From Clostridiales bacterium (GTDB lineage: Bacteria; Bacillota; Clostridia; Lachnospirales; Lachnospiraceae), in assembly GCA_021204045.1 (NCBI GenBank), contig JAJQAA010000044.1:1-64000 (forward strand): a stretch of DNA of 64,000 nt, in the 5' to 3' direction. The notes beneath the pieces are model-generated. The model did no database searches. It was not told where the DNA came from and was given only the letters and a program-made list of their open reading frames with translations. Position numbers and translations under genes: made by a program. Positions 51,224 to 53,815 of this stretch are shown piece after piece (within the stretch, counting starts at the first letter, position 1; each line of letters starts with the position of its first letter).

Positions 51224-51376
51224 GCATCGAAAAATCGGAACCAAGAATCCGACGTTCTTGAATTACTTGTTGTATTTTACGTTAGCATGTGATAAGCTGT
51301 TTTGACAGAGCCTGTTGGAAACTGGAGAGATTCGTGCCGGGTGTATGGCAAAATTATCTGAATGGGGGATATACAG

Positions 51377-52336
51377 ATGAAAAATGTACGAAATGAAATC
51401 GTGATATATGAATCCTCGGATGGCGCTGTGAAGCTGCCTATCCGGGTTGATTATGGAGAGGAAACGGTGTGGCTTAACCGTGCGCAAATAGCGGAGTTGT
51501 TTGACCGGGATATTAAAACGATAGGTAAGCATATCAATAACTCATTGAAAGAAGAGCTTACGGATCAAGTGGTTGTCGCAAAATTTGCGACAACCAGCCC
51601 ACATGGAGCGATTGAGGGGAAAGTACAGACTCATATGACGGAATTTTATAACCTGGACGTCATCATTTCCGTCGGCTACCGTGTTAAATCCAAGCGGGGC
51701 ATTGAATTCCGCAAATGGGCGAACGCTGTGCTGAAAGATTACATAATGAAAGGATATGCCGTTAACCATAACCGTATCAAAGAACTTGGAGAGGTGATAC
51801 GGATTATGAAGCGGACAGAACAGACCCTGGATGCAAAGCAGGTGCTGTCTGTTGTTGAAAAATACAGCGCGGCGCTGGATATGCTGGACGACTATGACCA
51901 CCAGAGAATGAAGCGTCCCAAAGGCAATGAAGCGGTATATGTTCTTACTTATGAAGAATGCCGCAAGGTAATCGATCAGATGAAGTTTTCATCACAGTCA
52001 TCACTTTTCGGGAATGAAAAAGACGACTCTTTTAAGGGCAGTATCGGGAATATTTATCAGAGCTTTGGTGGGCAGGATCTATATCCGAGCATTGAGGAAA
52101 AAGCCGCAAATCTTTTATACCTGATTACAAAGAATCACAGCTTTTCCGATGGGAACAAACGGATTGCCGCAACGATATTTCTGTATTTTCTTGATAAAAA
52201 CGGTATTTTGTTTGTGGGTGACGAGAAGCTGATCGATGACCATACACTGGTTGCTTTGACAATTTTGATAGCGGAGTCAAGACCGGAAGAAAAAGAAATG
52301 ATGATTACCGTGATTATGAACTGCATTTGCGGTTGA
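51377..52336 (+). CDS. RhuM family protein with Fic/DOC domain
   Basis: The 319-residue protein has a RhuM N-terminal half (VWLNRAQIAELFDRDIKTIG, ISVGYRVKSKRGIEFRKWAN) and a C-terminal Fic/DOC domain with the active-site loop HSFSDGNKRIAATIF. Fic domains transfer AMP or phosphate to proteins, and DOC-like versions act as toxins. No separate antitoxin gene was seen next to it. The gene is AT-richer than its neighbours and sits in a decaying accessory stretch. The start is the ATG after GGGGGATATACAG. Confidence 0.8.
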   Translation: MKNVRNEIVIYESSDGAVKLPIRVDYGEETVWLNRAQIAELFDRDIKTIGKHINNSLKEELTDQVVVAKFATTSPHGAIEGKVQTHMTEFYNLDVIISVGYRVKSKRGIEFRKWANAVLKDYIMKGYAVNHNRIKELGEVIRIMKRTEQTLDAKQVLSVVEKYSAALDMLDDYDHQRMKRPKGNEAVYVLTYEECRKVIDQMKFSSQSSLFGNEKDDSFKGSIGNIYQSFGGQDLYPSIEEKAANLLYLITKNHSFSDGNKRIAATIFLYFLDKNGILFVGDEKLIDDHTLVALTILIAESRPEEKEMMITVIMNCICG

Positions 52337-52474: not shown

Positions 52475-52852
52475 ATGAGCATGCTTTCGCTGTGCCGTCA
52501 GCCGCTTGGCGGGAGGCGGCCCTGGCGTTACCGGAGGTTTTGCGCGGGTGGTTCCGTGCGGCGCCGTTTTGGCGGCAGTGCTTTGCTGCGGTGTATGCTG
52601 GGCGCGGCGCTGGCGTTGGAGTGCGCTTACGGGTTTTTGATTTTCGGAATGCCGGACGCGGAATGTCTGACTGGTCTGCTGCCGGAAAAGTGGATCTCCA
52701 TTTCCTGTGACGAGGAGGTCTGGTACCTGGAATGGCCGGGGGAAGACGCGGAGCATGAGGAGGTCAGCGGCATCCGTTTCCTGCCGAAAACCTGGGAAAT
52801 CCAGTATTACCACAGAGATGAGACCGTGAAAGAATCGGTTGCAAATCCATAG
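52475..52852 (+). CDS. Hypothetical protein with one membrane segment
   Basis: The 125-residue frame begins after AAAAGGAGG and contains an arginine-rich N-terminus, a hydrophobic segment (about 41-58) and a soluble C-terminal part with WISISCDEEVWYLEWPGED. I recognise no family. An overlapping frame from 52471 is also open for 79 codons, so the reading frame of the first third is not certain. The purC promoter overlaps its 3' end. Confidence 0.45.
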   Translation: MSMLSLCRQPLGGRRPWRYRRFCAGGSVRRRFGGSALLRCMLGAALALECAYGFLIFGMPDAECLTGLLPEKWISISCDEEVWYLEWPGEDAEHEEVSGIRFLPKTWEIQYYHRDETVKESVANP

Positions 52853-52867
52853 ACGGTGTATTATAAT
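52839..52867 (+). promoter_or_regulatory. Promoter of the purine operon
   Basis: TTGCAA (52839-52844) and TATAAT (52862-52867) are 17 bp apart. The start would be near 52874, only a few bases before the four-way-junction element, giving a leader of about 230 nt before purC. Confidence 0.75.
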
Positions 52868-52879
52868 GCTTCCGTAATA

Positions 52880-53022
52880 ATTCGGGACGGCGCGATCTCA
52901 GACAGGAAAATCTGCGTCAAGCTTGCTTGTAAGCAGATTTTCCTGCCTGAGATCACATCGGAGGAATCTCCGATGCTTCTTGGCGCGGCTTTCAGCCGTG
53001 CCAAGAAGACGCCGTCCGGAAT
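52880..53022 (+). ncRNA. Structured leader element: closed four-way junction
   Basis: Four helices can form with almost no unpaired bases. P1: ATTCGGGACGGCG (52880-52892) with CGCCGTCCGGAAT (53010-53022), one mismatch. P2: 52894-52915 with 52933-52954, 22 bp with one mismatch and a 17-nt loop. P3: CATCGGAG/CTCCGATG (52956-52963, 52968-52975), loop GAAT. P4: 52976-52990 with 52994-53008, 15 bp with one G-U, loop TTC. Junction bases are only C52893, A52955 and A53009. It is not a purine riboswitch or any motif I know. It could be a regulatory RNA or a palindromic mobile repeat. Confidence 0.65.
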
Positions 53023-53104
53023 GTCAGAGTTCCAGAAGTATATTCTGAGTTGCGAATTGTTTAAAAAATCATATCATCAATCTGAGAAGGGACCGGTGGA
53101 TACG

Positions 53105-53815
53105 ATGGAGAAAAAAGAGTTACTGTACGAGGGAAAGGCGAAAAAGGTCTTTACGACGGAGGATCCGGACGTACTGATTGTTTCCTACAAGGATGACGCG
53201 ACCGCATTTGACGGCATGAAGAAGGGGACGATCGTCGGCAAGGGCGCGATCAACAACCGTATGACCAACCACATTTTCCGCCTGCTGGAGAAAAAGGGCG
53301 TGCCGACGCATCTGATCGAGGAGTTAAACGACCGCGAGACCGCCGTGAAGAAGGTGGAGATCGTGCCGCTGGAAGTGATTATCCGCAACTATTCTGCCGG
53401 AAGCTTCGCCAAGAAGATGGGCATGGAAGAGGGAATCCGTTTTTCCCGCCCGACGCTGGAATTCAGCTACAAAAACGACGACCTGCATGATCCGTTTATC
53501 AACAGCTACTACGCGCTGGCGCTGGATCTGGCGACGGAGTCGGAGATTGCGGCGATCACGAAATATGCCTTTATTGTCAACGAAGTGATGTCGGAGTATT
53601 TTGACAGTCTGGGTATCGACCTGATTGATTTCAAGATTGAGTTTGGCCGTCTTGCAGACGGTACGATCATCCTTGCGGACGAGGTTTCCCCGGACACTTG
53701 CCGTCTGTGGGACAAGGAGACGCACGAGAAGCTGGACAAAGACCGTTTCCGTCGTGACCTTGGCAATGTGGAGGACGCTTACAATGAAGTGTTCCGCCGT
53801 CTTAACATCCAGTGA
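53105..53815 (+). CDS. purC: Phosphoribosylaminoimidazole-succinocarboxamide synthase
   Basis: The 236-residue enzyme joins CAIR and aspartate in purine synthesis. It begins [16 protein letters not shown] and has [16 protein letters not shown] and [16 protein letters not shown]. The frame is open back through the leader element, but only the ATG at 53105 gives the family start; a GTG at 53096 is an alternative. It leads the purC-purF-purB-purA run. Confidence 0.92.

Follow-up and report, generated by a model that had tools for sequence, protein, structure and literature searches.

The question raised by this locus is whether the compact structured sequence that precedes purC in a Lachnospiraceae genome is a regulatory RNA of that gene or a mobile repeat inserted in front of it. 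The window analysed here is a stretch of 64,000 nt (positions 1 to 64,000 of contig JAJQAA010000044.1 of a Clostridiales bacterium), and the initial annotation, made from its letters, had named both possibilities. The features on which the argument turns are as follows.

52839-52844, + strand: native -35 box of purC (TTGCAA), common to related purC genes as judged by eye
52862-52867, + strand: -10 box of purC (TATAAT), separated from the -35 box by a spacer of 17 bp
52866-52873, + strand: presumed left target duplication ATGCTTCC, overlapping the -10 box
52874-53025, + strand: the element, assigned as a mobile element (MITE) from its covariance-model match and its termini, right end eroded
52874-52892, + strand: left terminal inverted repeat GTAATAATTCGGGACGGCG, containing the 5' arm of P1
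52880-52892/53010-53022, + strand: helix P1, 12 pairs and one mismatch, from folding
52894-52954, + strand: P2, the long hypervariable compensated stem with its tip hairpin, from folding, comparison of copies and covariation
52894-52915/52933-52954, + strand: arms of P2, 21 pairs and one mismatch, with a 4-bp hairpin at the tip
52914-52934, + strand: conserved tip of P2, GCGTCAAGCTTGCTTGTAAGC, from the alignment of copies
52956-52975, + strand: P3, CATCGGAGGAATCTCCGATG, a conserved hairpin of 8 bp, from folding and alignment
52976-53008, + strand: P4, a hairpin of 15 bp, from folding and alignment
53010-53025, + strand: right terminal inverted repeat, truncated, CGCCGTCCGGAATGTC, containing the 3' arm of P1
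53026-53033, + strand: possible right copy of the target duplication, AGAGTTCC, identical to the left copy ATGCTTCC at 6 of 8 positions
53105-53815, + strand: purC (SAICAR synthetase; Pfam PF01259, E 1.4e-89)

Folding of positions 52880-53022 gives four helices with three unpaired junction bases (52893, 52955 and 53009) at an MFE of -99.3 kcal/mol (z -13.5; shuffles with a mean of -45.3 and an sd of 4), and none of 200 shuffles was as low in energy, which bears out the closed four-helix fold that had been proposed. The tip of P2 is made up of an inner stem CAAG/CTTG and a loop CTTG, with GT and TAA on either side. The predicted consensus promoter ahead of the element is likewise present, and 82 nt lie between the 3' end of P1 (53022) and the ATG of purC (53105), close to the distance of about 80 nt given before. 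The element had also been said to begin about 6 nt after the predicted +1; here the promoter stands but the start does not, as the terminal repeat begins earlier, with GTAATAATTC at 52874, 6 nt past the -10 box, and the element start is therefore approximately +1 itself.

The initial annotation knew of no purine-pathway riboswitch that the element matches. In Rfam, the window copy has no match at the gathering score, and at E<=10 there are only ten chance-level matches (four microRNA, three sRNA and two snoRNA families and one other gene family), which lie far under the cut-offs and include no riboswitch, so that a riboswitch identity was rejected. The only Rfam match in the window at the gathering score is a lysine riboswitch (RF00168, 47163-47342, + strand, 84.8 bits). 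The protein encoded at 51362-52333 combines a RhuM domain (PF13310) with a Fic domain (PF02661).

The element is not confined to purC. A nucleotide search of its own genome returned 9 matches, including the element itself and its own P2 on the reverse strand. A covariance model was built from an alignment (A1) of 28 hand-chosen copies; this model (R1) matches positions 52872-53027 with an E value of 3.8e-44, the window copy being one of its 28 sequences. In the own genome it gives 14 matches at E<=0.01, one of which is a fragment of another copy, leaving 13 places; eight score over 100 bits, and the other five are weaker, at 89, 59, 46, 46 and 28 bits. These copies precede genes reading as purC, purE, mreB, mraY, spo0A and others. 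Many copies at unrelated loci within one genome is the outcome by which the initial annotation had proposed to recognise a mobile repeat. At the same threshold, the model finds matches in 20 of 24 genus genomes, in some of them only weak ones, with 124 in G012, 92 in G007, 61 in G001, 29 in G006 and 18 in G018, counts that include antisense and partial matches.

Beyond the genus, 39 of 392 genomes sampled from the order, the own genome counted, have a match at E<=1e-4. When 29 loci were read out of these order-level matches, the tip GTCAAGCTTGCTTGTAA was present within 4 mismatches in 18 and absent in 11, and several of the 18 have the compensated form GTCATGCTTGCATGTAA; the match at L151 looks like chance. 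When 84,980 species, each represented by a single genome, were scanned for exact occurrences of the tip, at least 119 stretches were found, and among the matches listed are, by record title, Lachnospiraceae, Enterocloster, Blautia, Roseburia, Hungatella and Clostridium and, by title alone, Oscillospiraceae, Bacteroidales and one Hanstruepera. Phage and plasmid records gave no match and the tip pattern was absent from the viral contigs searched; a phage or plasmid origin was rejected. At four loci (L044, L045 and L046 on contigs C3, C83 and C7 of G012, and L043 on C67 of G001) the element is repeated in tandem, with periods of approximately 129-145 bp. In the own genome, the 3' arm of P4 together with P1 is seemingly repeated behind several copies (L343, L349, L344, L348 and L395), as if by slippage through hairpins. 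At L011 and L090, a gene reading as guanylate kinase is preceded by the element in G019 and, at a similar position, by a 38-bp remnant in G001.

The marks of transposition were sought in 99 strong copies, i.e., the sense matches above 70 bits among 149 model matches minus one duplicate, which are not a random sample because they were drawn from the best-scoring part of the match list. Both inverted ends are kept (<=3 mismatches) in 60 of these 99. Among the 60 two-ended copies, an 8-bp duplication is exact in 16 and present with at most one mismatch in 27 (cross-pair control, 0.6%); any other length from 3 to 12 yields 0-2 exact duplications. The left ends of the 60 read GTAA in 25, GTTA in 17 and otherwise in 18, and of the 27 with a duplication 15 start with GTAA and 8 with GTTA. 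The window copy has GTAA at its left end and an eroded right end; with identity at only 6 of 8 positions, its own duplication is weak. The element is approximately 150 bp long and lacks a transposase gene, its longest open frame being 50 codons. On the + strand the purC frame stays open through the element (52856-53815), and one frame of the - strand is open as well; both are probably side effects of the palindromes. Internally reduced, shorter forms also exist, the extreme being L082, a 38-bp palindrome of the two ends flanked by the duplication GCAGCATT. Copies at unrelated loci, inverted ends and 8-bp duplications support the possibility, raised at the outset, that a transposon-type palindromic repeat lies in the leader, with P1 serving as its terminal inverted repeats.

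The termini point to the IS66 group. An IS66 member described in PMC12888890 has the end GTAACCGTCCGGGCA and 8-bp duplications. In L066, a locus of the genus, GTAACTGTTCAG at 670 and GTAACTATTCAG, whose last base is at 2474, enclose an IS66 transposase ORF (1009-2451) that scores above the cut-offs of PF03050 and NF033517. A transposase 60% identical to it, in another genus (L410), lies between the ends GTATCTGTTCAG and GTAACTGTTCAG, one of them with a mismatch, and one such end was seen for a transposase 46% identical to it (L411). The complete copy L012 of the element has the 12 bases GTAACTGTTCAG at both ends, which agrees at 12 of 12 positions with one end of each transposon, the left in L066 and the right in L410. 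The left end of the window copy agrees with the IS66 ends at 9 (nearer end) and 8 of 12 bases, and BLAST found no match between it and the IS66 stretches. Comparing three copies with three IS66 stretches, we found only the 12 terminal bases and chance matches of 9-14 bases; the interior of the element is unrelated to these stretches. Derivation of the interior from a parent IS is not required of all MITEs.

No matching 8-bp duplication of their own was found for L066 and L410, nor was an IS66 with the shared termini found in the own genome, where the single IS66 locus, L060, lacks them. When 13 IS66 loci were searched for inverted ends together with an 8-bp duplication, only L056 and L061 showed both, and their ends are different ones. 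L056 comes from the same order; each of its ends is GTAAGCGTCAAATAATAGAT, and the duplicated sequence is GTTCCATA. L073, an IS66 relative at a greater distance (PF03050 above cut-off; NCBIfam 142.7 of 180 bits), begins with GTTACTATTCACGGG, resembling the GTTAC ends of G007. Dispersed copies, inverted ends, 8-bp duplications and the 12 bases shared with IS66 together make the element an IS66-type MITE. That it is mobile and of transposon origin is almost certain, and from its termini we infer that an IS66 transposase moves it in trans. Compared with IS66 insertion sequences and their MITEs, it has the same GTAA-type termini and 8-bp duplications; it differs in lacking a transposase, in that its interior is a conserved four-helix fold, and in that many copies start with GTTA.

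The feature that sets the family apart is stem P2, whose pairing is kept while its sequence is free. In A1, 95.9% of the cells are paired, a figure favoured by the derivation of the structure from A1 itself, and 0 of 500 shuffles were as good; sliding the pair partners lowers pairing to 36-45%. Both sides have changed at 37 of 51 pairs, and there are 241 double-changed cells compared with 66.7 in shuffles, a number that none of 500 shuffles reached. Among the eight scored copies of the own genome, per-site differences are 0.52 and 0.50 in the P2 arms and 0.43 in the terminal repeat, and 0.19 in the tip, 0.11 in P3 and 0.26 in P4. P2 thus differs at about half of its positions yet stays mostly paired. 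Of 319 changed pair comparisons, 226 changed on both sides and are still paired. A protein, either a host factor or the transposase, probably recognises the conserved tip.

How P2 changes is illustrated by closely related pairings (41 pairs listed, 8 apparent orthologues measured). In the orthologous copies L169 and L277, from Enterocloster MAGs, the flanks are identical at 997 of 1000 positions and P2 differs at 11 of 44, comprising four pair-keeping double changes, one repaired mismatch and one exchanged mismatch (A.G to G.A), a burst that could be an assembly error because both MAGs are of low coverage; the P4 loop also differs by two bases. Four other pairings at 98-99% identity, two of which come from one locus, show 0, 0, 0 and 2 changes in P2: L183/L137 and L183/L229 (one locus in three genomes, approximately 98%) have identical P2 stems, and, with identity taken over 850 nt including the element, L426/L446 (99.1%) has 0 of 44 and L429/L452 (99.2%) has 2 of 44. 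Among the five close pairings, then, a single one shows the burst. Where the flanks are less alike, P2 has changed strongly (L114/L130, 10/44; L137/L153, 24/44; L118/L276, 29/44; L434/L449, 8/44). For L154/L155, where only one flank aligns, the difference is 15/44, and for L383/L272, with flanks of only 64-73%, it is 32/44. Another set of seven pairings includes two, L423/L448 and L434/L449+603, that involve partial or tandem copies; the partial copy L277-2556/L169+2081 has no change in P2.

The double changes in P2 may have arisen on the DNA, by template switching in the palindrome or by gene conversion between copies, and not through selection on the RNA. The burst in L169/L277 seems faster than point mutation followed by selection would allow, and the exchange of A.G for G.A swapped both letters, as replacement would. 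However, a donor of P2 for L277, sought in the contigs of both MAGs, was not found (the best copy has 84% identity in the sister and 79% in its own), and the other four close pairings are nearly unchanged. A further argument comes from the strands, since strand-neutral repair would not produce an excess of G-U over A-C mismatches on one strand. Over 58 dissimilar genus copies from the 99 sense matches the ratio is 106:57 (p 1.5e-4). By helix it is 13:15 in P1 (no excess), 7:2 in P3 and 39:9 in P4, which supplies most of the overall excess, in part through a single pair that 15 of 28 copies have as U-G. For P2 itself it is 47:31 in the genus, not significant, and 55:21 at other loci (78 representatives; p 1.2e-4). 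This is moderate evidence that folding takes place on the strand with P2 first, whether that strand is RNA or single-stranded DNA. We give the DNA-level origin slightly less than an even chance. The earlier claim that the compactness of the element implies selection on structure agrees with the covariation, but part of that covariation may have a DNA-level cause.

A second distinctive property is position. Of 119 genus flanks, 30 have a -10-like hexamer (at least 5 of 6) that ends 4-6 nt short of the element on its left side, as do 14 of 110 others, in a test that was framed after the pattern had been noticed; two of the 30 (L114 and L130) are one orthologous site, and some of the 110 are records of G012. 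On the right side there are 4 of 114 at 4-6 nt and a small peak of 7 at offset 1. The background is about one per offset, so roughly 3-4 would be expected at 4-6 nt. On reading, each of the 13 copies in the own genome is followed by a gene in the sense orientation; automatic scoring gives 10 sense and 0 antisense, and 6 of these 10 are behind a -10-like hexamer. Elsewhere the sense/antisense counts relative to the downstream gene, which rest on crude ORF picks, are 26/12 in G012 and, with no bias towards sense, 8/13 in G007 and 6/8 in G001; they are 28/12 for recent copies, 56/48 for copies with both ends and no duplication, and 42/21 for those without the right end.

This position may reflect nothing more than a transposase preference for AAT-rich targets, with an RNA that has no effect. 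The duplications of 42 recent copies lean to A-A-W-T-T-T-W, a non-symmetric pattern satisfied by TATAAT, and 9 of these 42 are already behind such a hexamer. Against this, the side is fixed, as the left and right counts in the genus show, and the copies of the own genome combine 6 of 10 behind a hexamer with none antisense. Overall, we regard target preference as a serious contender that falls a little below the halfway mark. The initial annotation had the repeat "happening" to sit in the leader; in the leader it is, but in view of the enrichment behind -10-like hexamers, "happening" may be too weak.

The purC leaders of the relatives bear on the remaining alternatives. Of the 24 genus genomes, 17 yielded a purC gene, and 16 leaders (420 nt) were readable, one being cut. 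The promoter is common to 15 of the 16 by eye, the exception, G003, being the most distant, and the four-helix element is present in that of the own genome only, which indicates a lineage-specific insertion between the -10 box and the gene. In G018 the purC leader has a separate short palindrome with GTAAC ends farther downstream (L362), and in G020 a P3/P4-like fragment lies in the opposite orientation upstream of the promoter. A cis-regulatory RNA specific to purC or to purine genes, such as a new riboswitch or attenuator, is very improbable: the element is structured, lies between promoter and gene, and also precedes a purE-like gene in the own genome by reading of its translation, but one occurrence in 16 readable leaders fails the conservation proposed for a cis-regulator, the other copies of the own genome precede genes reading as unrelated, and the window copy has no Rfam match at the gathering score. 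The empty leaders would weigh less only if this strain alone had recruited the element as a regulator. Hardly credible is a widespread immobile class of regulatory RNA serving many genes, for although structure, varied genes and the sense orientation in the own genome would suit it, the 8-bp duplications, the empty purC site in relatives and the internal deletions down to a 38-bp palindrome of the two ends do not.

We consider it likely, with fair confidence, that an IS66-type MITE was inserted in the purC promoter and forms a folded 5' end. An IS66 transposase acting in trans would have moved the element into the promoter, just behind the -10 box. The purC transcript would then begin with the element's first nucleotide or close to it, and its 5' end would be locked in the closed four-way junction. 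Judged from the predicted fold and the position, the RNA of the element probably caps the 5' end of host transcripts. 5' stem-loops can protect mRNA. By analogy with CREE and with BOX and RUP repeats, the effect most to be expected is that the structure alters mRNA decay, through the access of 5' exonucleases or pyrophosphohydrolase or through cutting of P2 by RNase III; this effect we propose only tentatively, with the balance tilted somewhat against it. The most far-reaching version is unlikely. In it, the element would insert at transcription starts and supply a folded 5' cap, host mRNA beginning with its closed junction; selection on the RNA would keep it there, and P2 would be renewed in bursts on both arms under a fixed, protein-read tip. 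If true, the burst in L169/L277 would represent a new way of diversifying a double-stranded stem.

REP and REPIN sequences are palindromic. They are small mobile repeats with many copies, according to PMC3116915; the element differs from them by its 8-bp duplications and IS66-like ends. The BOX, RUP and SPRITE sequences of the pneumococcus, which belong to different hosts, are described in PMC3049150 as small interspersed structured repeats that are judged parasitic and are likely to affect co-transcribed genes. The CREE of Neisseria, according to PMC2649163, are commonly 104-108 or 153-157 bp long, with inverted repeats and a target duplication, and often lie 5' of genes; the stem of CREE RNA is bound or cut by RNase III, and in one case CREE lies between a native promoter and its genes. 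CREE can generate promoters, whereas the present element sits behind host promoters, and it differs from CREE in its four helices and hypervariable stem. A literature search, mostly of papers outside subscription, found no description of the element.

In summary, the element is of a known kind, a structured MITE, and belongs to a large family whose window copy has no Rfam match at the gathering score. Its compensated stem is unusual in being hypervariable, and its copies are enriched behind -10 boxes. Genomes of the genus carry from none to over a hundred matches. Because its copies resemble a strongly covarying RNA, the family can mislead searches for riboswitches. It also makes testable the idea that transposons are suppliers of 5' structures to mRNAs.
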